Below, piece after piece: positions 290 to 52,397 of a DNA stretch of 64,000 bases. The notes beneath the pieces were generated by a model, which worked only from the letters and a program-made list of their open reading frames with translations, was not told where the DNA came from and searched no databases. The position numbers were made by a program, and so were the translations under genes. Source of the DNA: Bacillota bacterium. GTDB lineage: Bacteria > Bacillota > Dethiobacteria > Dethiobacterales > Dethiobacteraceae. Location: the NCBI GenBank assembly GCA_012800795.1, contig JAAZIQ010000060.1:1-64000 (forward strand). Direction: 5' to 3'. Positions within the stretch are counted from its first letter, which is position 1. The number at the start of each line of letters is the position of its first letter.

Positions 290-332
290 GCCATTATGTC
301 AATATTGACATAATGGCTCTGCCGGTTATACG
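290..332 (+). promoter_or_regulatory. Palindromic operator over the -35 box of the fdh promoter
   Basis: Bases 290-317 form a perfect 28-bp palindrome with half-site GCCATTATGTCAAT. The right half supplies a -35 hexamer TTGACA (305-310). A -10-like TATACG lies at 327-332 (16-bp spacing), or TACGAT at 18 bp. The formate dehydrogenase start codon is about 55 bp further on. The core (ATTATGTCAAT..TGACATAAT) recurs at 3767-3814, in the same relation to a -35 box upstream of mobB. A ModE-like regulator gene lies between the two sites, so it is the natural candidate ligand. That link is an inference. Confidence 0.65.
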
Positions 333-388
333 ATAAGATACCGATTTATTTATAATTTTCTATTATGTCCCAAAAAGGAGGCCGAGAT

Positions 389-2330
389 GTGGTTACGTTA
401 ACCATCAATGGGATATCCGTAACGGTGCCGAAAGGTACAACCATACTTACTGCTGCTGAAAGTATCGGCATAGATATCCCTACCCTTTGTTATGATAAGG
501 ATCTCAGCATTGTCGGAGCTAGCCGAATGTGTGTGGTTGAAGTAGAGGGTGCACGTAATTTAGTTGCTGCCTGCTCCACACCGGTTGCGGAAGGCATGAA
601 AGTTGAAACAGAATCGGAACGAGTAGTAAAAGCAAGAAAAACCATTCACTTTGTCATGCAAAAATTTATGCGTGCAGTAATTGGCACAAACAGTGTGGAT
701 CATTGCGCACGTACGTGACACGCTCCAACTGTGCGCAACGCTTGGTAGTGGTGCAATGACCAACTCTATCGGAGAAATTGAATATAACGATGTACTGTTT
801 GTTATCGGCTCCAATGCCCCTGAAGCCCACCCTGTAATTGGCAGTAAAATGAAACGCGCAGCAAGGCGCGGCGCAAAATTGATCGTGGTTGATCCAAGGG
901 AAATAGAGTTAGTAGAACATGCCACACTTTGGTTGCGCATAAAACCGGGTACAGATGCTGCTCTCATCAACGGGTTAATGTAAGTCATCATTACAAACGG
1001 CTGGGAAGATAAAGATTTTATTCGCGAGCGCTGTGAAGGATACGAAGATTTGTGGCGAGTAGTACAAAAATATCCCCCAGAGCGCGTCAGCAAAATAACA
1101 GGAATTCCGGAAGAGCAAATCTATGCTGCTGCTGAGCTTTATGCCAAAACCAAAAAGCTGGCATTTACTACACTTTGGGGATTATAGAGCATACTACCGG
1201 TACAAGCAATGTTATGAATCTTGCCAATCTGGCTATGATTACAGGCCATTTGGGAATAGAAAATGCAGGGATTAATCCTTTACGCGGACAAAACAACGTA
1301 CAAGGTGCCTGCGATATGGGTGCCCTGCCCAATGTTTTCCCCGGTTATCAAGCCATTCACGATCCCCAAATTGCCGCTAAATTTGAACAAGCTTGGCAGA
1401 GAAAATTAAATCCCCAAATGGGCTTTCGTATTCCGGAAATGATGGATATGATCCTACTCGACAAGGTTAAAGCCATGTATATAATGGGCGAAGACCCGGT
1501 CTTAACAGACCCCGACACCAATCATATCCGCAAAGCTCTCGAGCATCTGGATTTTCTGGTTGTTCAAGATTTATTCCTGACTGAAACCGCACAATATGCC
1601 GATGTCTTCCTGCCCGCTGCCTGTTACGCCGAAAAGGACGGCACCTTTACCAACACAGAACGACGCGTCCAGCGTATACGTAAAGCTGTAGAACCACCGG
1701 GGCAGTGCCGCGAAGACTGGGATATTATTTGTGATCTAGCCAGAAGAATGGGCTACGAAATGAACTACCGTAATGCTGAAGAAATCTTTAATGAAATCCG
1801 CAGTCTTACTCCCAGTTATGCCGGAATTAGCTATGGGCGGTTAGACAAAGAAGGCGGCATTCAGTGGCCCTGCCCTTCGGAATCATCCCGGCACACGCTT
1901 TTTACACGAAGGAAAATTCCCTAGGGGCAGAGGACTGCTGCAAGGAATTGAGTATGAGGAACCGGCAGAACTTACCAATGAAGAATACCCAATTCTTTTA
2001 ACAACCGGTCGCATGCTGTACCATTTCAACATCATGACCAGACATTCAAAGAATTTGGATACACTTAGACCATATGAACTTGCACAAATGAACCCTGCAG
2101 ATGCGAAAAAACTTGGGGTATGTGACGGCGAAGAAGTCCGCATCACCTCAAGAAGAGGATCAATAATTGCCAGAATACAAATAACAGACGCAGTACCGCC
2201 CGGTGTGATGTTTATGACATTCCATTACAAGGAATCTCCGGCCAATGTACTTACAAATTCAGTTTTTGATCCCATCTCTAAAACAGCGGAATATAAAGTA
2301 TCTGCAGTTAGAGTAGAAAAAGTATTTTAG
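389..2330 (+). pseudogene. fdhA: Decayed selenocysteine formate dehydrogenase, large subunit
   Basis: GTG at 389 sits 7 bp after AGGAGG. The first ~95 codons encode a 2Fe-2S ferredoxin-like domain (LCYDKDL and SRMC motifs). The frame then jumps directly into the molybdopterin domain ([18 protein letters not shown]), so the linker, the [4Fe-4S] domains and the first molybdopterin-domain cysteines are missing. TGA at 716-718 followed by HAPTV matches the CAR-x-U-H-(S/A)-PTV selenocysteine site of formate dehydrogenases. Further lesions are a frame change near 730, TAA at 981-983, a frame change near 1170 and another near 1884. The intact remainder reaches TAG at 2328-2330 and includes the molydopterin-dinucleotide-binding C-terminal domain. 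The N-terminal ferredoxin domain suggests the NAD(P)-linked type. With this many lesions it cannot be functional. Confidence 0.9.
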
Positions 2331-2357
2331 CAAAATAAACATCAAACCGAATTTGAA

Positions 2358-2386
2358 AAGGGCTGACCGATCGGTCAGCCCTTATT
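2358..2386 (+). terminator. Terminator-like hairpin after fdh
   Basis: AAGGGCTGACC-GATC-GGTCAGCCCTT is a perfect 11-bp stem followed by ATTGTT. The T-run is short, so termination may be weak. Confidence 0.65.
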
Positions 2387-2552
2387 GTTCCGGCATTTTA
2401 TATTTTATAAAAAATTAAGCAGGGCGCTTACCGCACGCCCATATACCCATATATACATGCGTAACACAAACGATACTACTATGTAAAACATTCATTTTAA
2501 AGGACATTATACTTTGCATAAAGAATTTTAATTTAAAGAGGGGGGACGGACT

Positions 2553-2957
2553 ATGCATTCAAAAACAACCTTTCCCAAAAACAGATTAAAAGCTAAATGT
2601 AAAATTTGGATTGAAGCTGATAAAGCAGTTGTTTTCGGCGGTGGAAGACTTGCTCTGCTGCAGGCAATCGACGAATACGGTTCCATTAATCGTGCAGCGG
2701 CACAACTAGGCATGTCTTACCGTGCCGCTTGGGGGAAAATTACTGCAACCGAAAAACGCTTAGGTATTAAACTGGTAGAGAAACAAATTGGAGGGGCTCG
2801 CAGCGGTTCTAAATTAACACCGGAAGCTAAAAAGCTAATGGATGCTTACCGACAATTTAAACAAGAAGCCATTATCGCCGTTGATAATCTATTCAAGCTG
2901 TATTTTGCGGATATTTGTTTTCCTGTCGAAGCCAAGTCAGATGACGAGCTTGTCTAA
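2553..2957 (+). CDS. ModE-like molybdate regulator, DNA-binding domain only
   Basis: This 134-residue protein is a LysR/ModE-type winged helix-turn-helix. The segment from about residue 38 to 105 carries the family pattern (GSINRAAAQLGMSYRAAW, then GGARSGSKLTPEAKKLM). E. coli ModE has a C-terminal molybdate-binding TOBE pair, but here the protein ends soon after the DNA-binding domain. Molybdate may therefore be sensed by a partner or not at all. The ribosome site GAGGGGGG precedes ATG. The gene lies between fdh and mobB, and its 3' end overlaps the convergent mobB 3' end by 21 bp. It probably binds the shared palindromes at 290-317 and 3767-3814 (inference). A -10-like TATACT precedes it near 2508. 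Confidence 0.8.
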   Translation: MHSKTTFPKNRLKAKCKIWIEADKAVVFGGGRLALLQAIDEYGSINRAAAQLGMSYRAAWGKITATEKRLGIKLVEKQIGGARSGSKLTPEAKKLMDAYRQFKQEAIIAVDNLFKLYFADICFPVEAKSDDELV

Positions 2958-3491
2958 CCTTTTGCAGTGGGTACAGACTTTTTCTGGGACATCCGGCTGC
3001 CAGTCCGCCACTTTTTCTTCCAGAAAATCAACCAGTTTTTCCAGCTCCGTCATTGCATTTATCACTTGCAGGCCCTTATACATCTGCATGGTATTTGCAA
3101 TCCGCCCTGAAATGGCAATAACAGTCTCATCCATTCTTTTATCTATTTCCTCTACCTGCAAAGCAGTAATAATTTTAGGCACATTAGTGTCTGAAACACC
3201 TTCCATGACAACATAATCAAAATCAGCATAAAACTTTAAGATCTCCTGAACAGCAAGTCTGCGGCTAAATAATAGATCTGTTTCGTACTTTCCACGGGCA
3301 GTTACAAGTTGTGCGCCGGCCTTCTTGTGCCTGTCAGTATTTGAACCTTCTGTATCAAGGGCAAATTCCTCACAATGAATTTCTTTAATAGAACCAACGC
3401 TATATCCCCTCTTCATAAGTTCCGGGATAATGTTTTCAATGCTCGTGGTTTTACCGGACCCTTTAACACCAATAACAGAAAAAGCCTTCAT
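2937..3491 (-). CDS. mobB: Molybdopterin-guanine dinucleotide biosynthesis adaptor MobB
   Basis: This 184-residue P-loop GTPase-like protein has Walker A GVKGSGKTT at residues 8-16. It also has the MobB hallmarks KEIHCEEFALDTEGSNTDRHKKAGA and VVMEG. MobB assists MobA in attaching GMP to molybdopterin to make the bis-MGD cofactor used by formate dehydrogenase. The C-terminus has an extra CTHC pair that could bind metal. The ATG follows GGAAGGGAAC. The gene has a 260-nt leader with a structured RNA and terminator, and a promoter embedded in a palindrome, so it looks doubly regulated. It appears intact although the neighbouring fdh is dead, so other Mo enzymes probably remain elsewhere. Confidence 0.9.
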   Translation of the reverse strand: MKAFSVIGVKGSGKTTSIENIIPELMKRGYSVGSIKEIHCEEFALDTEGSNTDRHKKAGAQLVTARGKYETDLLFSRRLAVQEILKFYADFDYVVMEGVSDTNVPKIITALQVEEIDKRMDETVIAISGRIANTMQMYKGLQVINAMTELEKLVDFLEEKVADWQPDVPEKVCTHCKRLDKLVI

Positions 3492-3582
3492 TCAGTTCCC
3501 TTCCAGCTGCAGTAACAAAGACAACTACTTTACTAAAATAGCATATTTCCCAGAAAGCAAAAACCACTTCCAGCTTGGAAGC

Positions 3583-3619
3583 GGAAAAAGACAAGGGTAA
3601 CAACTGCCCTGCCCCTTGT
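3583..3619 (-). terminator. Terminator in the mobB leader (riboswitch expression platform)
   Basis: On the minus strand ACAAGGG pairs with CCCTTGT and is followed by CTTTTTCC. It begins right after the 3' arm of the candidate aptamer stem, as expected for a transcription-attenuating riboswitch. mobB starts about 90 nt further downstream. Confidence 0.65.
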
Positions 3620-3718
3620 TTTTCTCCTTTCCAAACGGGAGGCTGTACCGTTTCCAGTACAACCCTATCGGTTTACCGTCATAGGCAAATCCCTTAGACC
3701 GGATAAACTCGGAGAAAA
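3620..3718 (-). ncRNA. Structured mobB leader, probable Moco-type riboswitch aptamer
   Basis: Minus-strand folding by eye gives a closing stem TTTTCTCC/GGAGAAAA (3711-3718 with 3620-3627). Inside it are two hairpins: CCTATgaCGG-TAAA-CCGATAGG, and GTACTG-GAAA-CGGTAC with a GNRA tetraloop. After these comes GCCTCCCGTTTGGAAAGG. The conserved-looking CTCCGAG, GAAA loop and CCTCCC..GGAAAGG elements resemble the Moco RNA motif, which senses molybdenum (or tungsten) cofactor. The location upstream of mobB and the following terminator fit that reading. The family assignment is from memory of the motif. The structure and terminator are seen directly. Confidence 0.65.
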
Positions 3719-3759
3719 TTTTTTATAAACCCACAATATTTAGCACGGCTTTTGTATAG

Positions 3760-3814
3760 ATTATATAATATAGGCAGTCATTATGTCAATGCTGACATAA
3801 TGACTGCCTATATT
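3760..3814 (-). promoter_or_regulatory. mobB promoter with -35 inside a 48-bp inverted repeat
   Basis: Bases 3767-3788 and 3793-3814 are perfect 22-bp complementary arms around a 4-nt loop. Reading the minus strand, the -35 TTGACA (3784-3789) lies in the repeat and TATAAT (3760-3765) follows at 18-bp spacing. The inner core matches the palindrome at 290-317 in 20 of 22 positions. The repeat also lies just past the 3' end of the SecD-like lipoprotein gene, so it may also act as a terminator for it. Confidence 0.7.
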
Positions 3815-3831
3815 ACTACGGAACCTATCTC

Positions 3832-4470
3832 TTATTTGGGCTCTGAAATGACTTCCTGGGAAAACACTTCTGCATATAAAGGCAGTGGATGTTTAATCAA
3901 CGCGGCAAAAAGCCAGGCATCGGCAACAGGCCTTTCTCCTACTAAAAGAAATTCCCCGCTTTTTATTTGCTTATTAATAACTGTTGTATTTACCAGTTCA
4001 TCATCTAAAAAGATATTAATTACTTCACCCTGTCGCAGCAAAGTTTCAGCGGCGAATTTTTCCTTTGCCTGCTTTTTTAAGCGGAAAAAAACGGCATCCT
4101 GTTCTGTTTCATCCTGGTAAGGGGAAACCTCTTCTACATCCTCTCCCGTCAGTAAAATTTCCCCGTCTTGAGTTACAACCAGGAAATTCCCCGGCCGGAA
4201 AATATCATCTGAACAATCCTCGGGCAGAGTCACAAGCATACAACCCTCTTCTGCTTTAACACTAAGTTTAATACCCAATTCTTCAGCACGCCGTAAAAGT
4301 TGTGACTGCCAGAGCTTCAATTGCTCATTATTAACATTCTGCCCTGTCGGAAAAACAAGAGTGTAACACACTCTGATTCGCTCCCCTTTCACTGGCCTAG
4401 ACTGACAGGAAAAAAGGTTTAAACAGATAACTAAGCAAAGGAACGAAAGCATCAAGGCATTTTTTTTCAC
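3832..4470 (-). CDS. Lipoprotein with a free-standing SecD P1-head-like domain
   Basis: This 212-residue protein has a lipoprotein signal (lipobox LFSC, Cys22) and starts at GTG after GGAGG. Residues ~50-205 follow the pattern of the SecD periplasmic P1 region: an LLRRAEELGIKL segment, VTLPED, a FLVV..DGEILLTGEDVEEV stretch, then a head-like part ending IFLDDELVNTTVINKQIKSGEF. SecD itself carries this domain between transmembrane helices and uses it to help translocated proteins fold or release. Here there are no other membrane segments, so the domain would be tethered outside the membrane alone. Function is unknown. It is followed by the large inverted repeat at 3767-3814. Confidence 0.7.
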   Translation of the reverse strand: MKKNALMLSFLCLVICLNLFSCQSRPVKGERIRVCYTLVFPTGQNVNNEQLKLWQSQLLRRAEELGIKLSVKAEEGCMLVTLPEDCSDDIFRPGNFLVVTQDGEILLTGEDVEEVSPYQDETEQDAVFFRLKKQAKEKFAAETLLRQGEVINIFLDDELVNTTVINKQIKSGEFLLVGERPVADAWLFAALIKHPLPLYAEVFSQEVISEPK

Positions 4471-45490: not shown

Positions 45491-45504
45491 ATATTTGCCT
45501 CTTA

Positions 45505-45602
45505 GCGGTCCTTCCCTACGCTGGTATTATCCATCTCAGGTTCAAAGGGTTAATCAGTCACACTGATTTCTCAGCCCGTGCTACGGGCACCCCTAGGCCC
45601 TT
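45505..45602 (-). ncRNA. TPP riboswitch (THI element)
   Basis: The minus strand shows the conserved pieces in order: GGGGTGCCC, GGGCTGAGA, ACCCTTTGAACCTGA and TGGATAATACCAGCGTAGGGAAG. It precedes thiM-thiW and a terminator. Confidence 0.97.
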
Positions 45603-45632
45603 AATATGCAATATGTTATTGTGGCTACTATT

Positions 45633-52097: not shown

Positions 52098-52397
52098 TTA
52101 AATATTTATAAACAAAATCGCCCCTGTAAGTAACAGGGGCGAATATTCTTCGCGGTACCACCTTGTTTTCGCTGCCAAAAAGCAACCTCAGCGGGCAACT
52201 ATCATTGCCCCTCCACAATAACGGGTGGAACCCGGCACAGCCTACAGGGCTTTCGCCTTTCAGTGTGCGGCTCTTAGGATGAATTCACAGCACCAATACC
52301 TGCTTTCTCACACCAGCCGAAAGCTCTCTGAAACGATTGGCTTTGCTGCTACTACTTCCTGGTCATTGCCTTTTGTCGCCAGACTTAAATTAAATTA
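52098..52397 (-). ncRNA. T-box leader, specifier UUC (phenylalanine)
   Basis: The minus strand contains the T-box core AAGGTGGTACCGCG (52148-52164) and a terminator, CGCCCCTGT..ACAGGGGCG (52119-52141) followed by ATTTTG. In Stem I the specifier loop is bounded by AGGA/TCCT below and GCAGCA/TGCTGT above. Its strands are AGTAGTA and GAATTCA, so the specifier codon is TTC. A promoter TTGACA-17-TACACT (52427-52432, 52404-52409) lies upstream. Uncharged tRNA-Phe should promote read-through into the importer operon. Confidence 0.88.

Follow-up and report, generated by a model that had tools for sequence, protein, structure and literature searches.

A decayed formate dehydrogenase gene, a gene for a short ModE-like regulator and mobB lie near the start of the window, the 64,000-nucleotide stretch of Bacillota DNA that was analyzed here. 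The fdh remnant and mobB are each preceded by a promoter with a palindrome, and these palindromes were treated as candidate operators of a molybdenum/tungsten (Mo/W) regulon. The features of the locus are collected in Table 1.

Table 1. Features at the fdh-modE-mobB locus, in window coordinates
Feature	Position	Strand	Description
Operator 1 (candidate), GCCATTATGTCAATATTGACATAATGGC	290-317		perfect palindrome, 28 bp; core ATTATGTCAATATTGACATAAT at 293-314
Promoter of fdh remnant	305-334	+	-35 TTGACA 305-310 inside operator 1; -10 TACGAT 329-334
Formate dehydrogenase alpha pseudogene	365-2330	+	~240 codons absent; in-frame TAA 981-983; three frameshifts; UGA(Sec) 716-718
Palindrome AAGGGCTGACCGATCGGTCAGCCCTT	2358-2383		separates fdh from modE; a probable terminator, judging by its sequence and the repeat list
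Single-domain ModE-like regulator	2553-2957	+	134 aa; HTH only, without TOBE/Mop; proposed repressor
mobB, MGD cofactor accessory GTPase	2937-3491	-	TIGR00176 above equivalog cut-off
Terminator-like hairpin, then TTTTTGCTTT	3564-3584	-	downstream of the riboswitch, ahead of mobB; possible expression platform
Moco/Tuco riboswitch aptamer, RF01055	3608-3726	-	74.3 bits against a gathering score of 36; model positions 1-135
mobB promoter	3760-3789	-	-35 TTGACA 3789-3784 inside operator 2; -10 TATAAT 3765-3760
Operator 2 (candidate), AATATAGGCAGTCATTATGTCAATGCTGACATAATGACTGCCTATATT	3767-3814		48-bp palindrome, 44/48 positions palindromic; core ATTATGTCAATGCTGACATAAT at 3780-3801

Paired palindromes over two promoters

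The first-pass annotation had claimed that the two palindromes share a core and that a ModE-like gene lies between them. Direct comparison of the two 22-bp cores gave 20 of 22 identical positions, and the gene is in place. That annotation had also proposed a genome search for the core. With up to three mismatches allowed, the 1.67-Mb genome (90% complete) contains just these two copies, both over -35 boxes and flanking the modE-like gene. Dinucleotide-shuffled versions of the window contain no core match with up to three mismatches. The TTGACA hexamer sits within both palindromes, as had been claimed, and the spacer of each promoter is 18 nt. Agreement with the consensus is complete for the mobB promoter (12 of 12 positions) and 10 of 12 for the fdh-remnant promoter.

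The surroundings of site 2 could suggest a different function. It might chiefly form an RNA hairpin or terminator for the SecD-like gene at 3832-4470 (minus strand), and site 1 might be a palindrome of chance or structural origin. The 48-bp dyad begins 18 bp past the stop codon of that gene, and perfect inverted repeats are commoner in the window than in Markov-resampled sequence, a surplus that would suit a structural role. However, the stem of site 2 is followed by a T-run on neither strand, and the terminator reading was rejected for this reason. The core of site 2 is also the same 22-mer as that of site 1, which recurs before Mo/W genes elsewhere with its -35 placement conserved. Taken together, we regard a purely structural origin of the pair as very unlikely.

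The fdh remnant and the mobB leader

Compared with L257, one of the genome's intact formate dehydrogenases, the pseudogene has lost residues ~94-333 and changes frame after positions ~733, ~1175 and ~1876. Its TGA is the selenocysteine codon, and a weak SECIS_3 match lies at 713-760. This selenocysteine-type gene has decayed, yet its promoter palindrome is still perfect. The loci of the genome's intact formate dehydrogenases, L257 and L258, were searched for weaker operators too, and none was found. The two sites had been said to drive fdh and mobB. Both promoters are present with the -35 box in the palindrome, but a working fdh target is not. Since this target is a pseudogene, the living regulon in this genome may be mobB alone; besides mobB, only the still intact promoter of the dead gene is left of it.

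Between the operator-promoter and mobB lies a full-length match to the Moco/Tuco riboswitch, which exceeds the gathering score by 38 bits; the first-pass annotation did not contain this element. The riboswitch independently ties the mobB promoter to Mo/W cofactor control. Because mobB also has this riboswitch, the palindrome is only one of its two controls. The leader carries both a riboswitch and a terminator, and the operator and the riboswitch are therefore arranged in series. The element resembles known RF01055 riboswitches in its full-length match and in the terminator that comes after it; here, it is stacked directly behind a candidate ModE-type operator, before mobB. MobB itself is needed for a tungsten formate dehydrogenase in Methylorubrum (PMC13197769). 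The moa operon of E. coli is under both ModE and Moco RNA control (PMC2408646). That operon combines ModE activation with a riboswitch, whereas at mobB in the window the riboswitch follows a ModE-type operator at a repressor position.

A second RF01055 riboswitch of this genome (G000:C86:30536-30652, locus L256) precedes genes for an FMN-binding protein and for an Oxidored_molyb-domain protein; no weaker operator was found when this locus was searched. Among 39 loci from other genomes, no Moco riboswitch adjoining a site scored above threshold. Genome G012 has a weak site (15/18) immediately upstream of a tupA riboswitch; G013 has no counterpart of this site. A TPP riboswitch (45496-45604, minus strand) and a T-box leader (52132-52375, minus strand) also lie in the window.

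The site in other genomes

Exact copies of the core were searched for in 84,980 GTDB species genomes, and 34 matches were found. Eight of them are upstream of Mo/W genes: three before tupA, four before fdh and one before an xdh-type gene. The binomial chance of this result is 3e-7 even assuming 2% random landing. When one or two mismatches were allowed in the same genomes, 14 further sites appeared, compared to none for a reversed-pattern control, and half of these (7/14) precede fdh, fdh/fdhD, moaA, moeA or another molybdopterin oxidoreductase gene. Chance was taken to explain the exact matches within or next to unrelated genes (Gp49-like toxin genes, Mycobacterium, Salinicoccus and others). 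Short ModE-like proteins are encoded by 9 of the 10 genomes in which a site is Mo-linked and by 5 of the 24 others (p=0.0003). For two of those ten genomes, the link is an aldehyde dehydrogenase gene that adjoins fdh genes. Mo-linked sites without a ModE match occur in G041 (fdh) and in G104 and G051 (moeA). A list of the genes downstream of the core, which the first-pass annotation had suggested drawing up, thus includes tupA, fdh, fdhD, moaA, moeA, xdh and, from the sample described below, the tungsten-dependent AOR gene.

The window's own class was sampled with 98 genomes, again counting sites against a reversed-pattern control. The 12 genomes whose ModE orthologue is at least 49% identical contain 16 sites compared to 1 control match, and the remaining 86 contain 10 compared to 9. 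Counted by genome, the site is borne by 6/12 with the orthologue and by 9/86 of the others (p=0.0026). Genome G106 has eight sites, of which two are upstream of a tungsten AOR gene and one is upstream of a molybdopterin oxidoreductase gene. Orthologues of the latter gene carry the site in G107, G108, G120, G122 and G124, with three mismatches in G107 and G108. Several G106 sites (L174-L177) precede surface proteins, for which a link to molybdenum is not proven. In G012 and G013, one site lies in the gap that separates modE from its neighboring gene, and a second is upstream of an xdh gene.

Weaker sites, with three mismatches or variant sequence, came from inspection that was directed at the neighborhood of modE. 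A variant site adjoins modE in G002-G004, while G069 has a close ModE orthologue with no recognizable site found nearby. In several relatives, the site adjoins modE, overlaps the -35 box and has TATAAT 17-18 nt downstream. The arrangement in which the -35 TTGACA forms the dyad's right half, with TATAAT at that distance, is seen at the window mobB promoter and at L004, L190, L191 and L049-L051. Over 36 sites, the mean of the best -10 score is 3.75, compared to 2.99 (sd 0.15) in shuffles. At L190 (4804-5991) and L191, a 396-aa fusion of NTPase_1 and methyltransferase domains is encoded after modE, behind the site; it is a possible Mo/W-linked gene.

In G107 and G108, the site is downstream of the -10 box instead of over the -35 box. 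Both are positions from which a repressor works, and we infer repression from this operator geometry. A ModE-like protein that binds the sites could instead activate or only modulate transcription. E. coli ModE does activate moaA (PMC2408646), and the paired sites upstream of AOR in G106 have poor -10 matches. On the other hand, the dyad contains the -35 box at both window promoters and in most relatives of the family, and it follows the -10 box in G107 and G108. We therefore consider activation or modulation improbable.

A single-domain ModE and its probable operator

The protein encoded between the palindromes matches TIGR00637 with E=1.4e-17 over 77 of 100 positions, although its 63.6 bits are below the cut-off of 98.5. 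In a profile search of the PDB, its nearest relatives were the ModE structures 2ijl, 1b9m and 1o7l, and fold comparison of a predicted model (mean pLDDT 88) again placed 1b9m/1o7l and 2ijl at the top. Of these, 1b9m and 1o7l are E. coli ModE, and 2ijl is Agrobacterium ModE. The protein thus has the ModE winged-helix DNA-binding domain, but the C-terminal TOBE/Mop domains of full-length ModE are absent from its 134 residues. No TOBE/Mop domain was found anywhere in its genome, nor in G002-G004, G012 and G013. With a ModE HTH alone and a link to mobB and fdh, it belongs with single-domain ModE proteins of the Campylobacter jejuni type. Its orthologues adjoin xdh and molybdopterin oxidoreductase genes. 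The ModE-type HTH is also found in proteins of ~360-420 aa in many class genomes (G124:C221, G106:C30:197241 and others).

Most site-bearing genomes share the recognition helix SYR(A/G)xWG(K/R), whereas other short ModEs have AWDLV, AWHLI or AWKLI at this position. The ModEs of G039 and G049, which bear sites, are exceptions with a different recognition helix. The difference in recognition helix would fit a changed operator.

With E. coli ModE and its modA operator, the window system shares a homologous winged HTH, a palindromic operator of similar length at the promoter and control of Mo genes. E. coli ModE has two C-terminal TOBE/Mop domains, in contrast to the window protein, which has neither. 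The operators also differ, with ATTATGTCA-N4-TGACATAAT in the window and ATCGNTATATA-N6-TATATANCGAT in E. coli. The statement that the E. coli ModE boxes are different was only partly right. The core shares 10 of the 20 specified positions of the published ModE-box consensus (PMC545781; p=0.13), but it matches the E. coli modA operator, aligned center to center, at 13-14 of 24 positions (p=0.02 for 13). This resemblance is suggestive but weak, and the operators may share an origin.

Other ModE proteins without a metal-binding domain are known. As cited in PMC7011364, the single-domain ModE Cj1507c of C. jejuni represses the Mo transporter as well as the W transporter. In delta-proteobacteria (Desulfovibrio/Desulfotalea), the ModE DNA-binding domain was described alone in 2004, with Mo sensing unclear and no operator of the E. 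coli type (PMC545781). The present analysis proposes an operator for one branch of this group, together with the targets mobB and fdh.

TaoR and TunR are regulators of Mo/W genes with overlapping targets. TaoR combines an excisionase-type HTH with a PBP-like domain, and TunR combines an integrase-type DNA-binding domain with Mop, so that their DNA-binding domains differ from that of the ModE-like protein. The palindrome could be the operator of one of these, given what they regulate and the stand-alone PBP-like proteins of ~300-400 aa in some site-bearing genomes, including G041 and G051, for which no ModE match was obtained. In the window genome, however, matches to PBP_like (PF12727) are weak and partial (best 1.2e-7) and do not identify a TaoR, and there is no TOBE match, so the pairing of Mop/TOBE with an integrase-type domain that marks TunR is missing. 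Sites are also present without a stand-alone TaoR-like protein in G028, G035, G038 and G043, and they adjoin modE in many relatives. An operator of TaoR or TunR is thus unlikely. A TaoR paper is cited in PMC11980592.

We read the palindromes as genuine operators within a Mo/W regulon, most likely belonging to a single-domain ModE. More specifically, comparative sequence evidence makes it probable that both are operators of the ModE-like protein encoded between them, that they cover the -35 box and that mobB is doubly controlled. The site, the protein and their co-occurrence are observed, and binding by the ModE-like protein is what they point to. A ModE-like dimer would bind the dyad ATTATGTCA-N4-TGACATAAT and cover the -35 hexamer, which from the geometry would exclude RNA polymerase. 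The regulon would serve Mo/W cofactor use, with formate and xanthine dehydrogenases, other molybdopterin enzymes, AOR, tupA, moaA, moeA, fdhD and mobB as its members, a list pooled over various bacteria and not drawn from one genome. Control of mobB would have two steps: initiation, set by the repressor, and then the leader Moco/Tuco riboswitch, probably acting through the terminator upstream of mobB. The protein has no molybdate-binding domain, and the genome search found none either. The repressor may depend on a partner, or its signal may not be an oxyanion. Tungsten may be as important as molybdenum, with tupA and AOR among the targets.

The first-pass annotation had predicted a small Mo regulon with an undescribed operator. 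The comparative evidence (Mo/W targets, co-occurrence with ModE, adjacency and -35 position) supports the regulon, its own operator and a ModE-like regulator well. The operator may be undescribed: a literature search that did not extend to the primary TaoR, TunR and C. jejuni ModE papers found no description of it. On the target side, the prediction is narrowed in this genome by the dead fdh gene, the intact formate dehydrogenases without a site and the additional riboswitch control of mobB.

A broader proposal, for which we see an even balance, is that the ModE branch with SYR(A/G)xWG(K/R) has an operator of its own, ATTATGTCA-N4-TGACATAAT, which serves Mo/W regulons across Bacillota and delta-proteobacteria. 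This would hold in genomes without a Mop/TOBE sensor, where a riboswitch within the transcript itself, or else a partner, would read metal status. The operator, the target list, the orthologue set and a candidate recognition helix make the question raised in 2004 (PMC545781) directly testable, and the mobB leader adds a small, self-contained example in which one Mo/W gene would answer to both a protein and an RNA.
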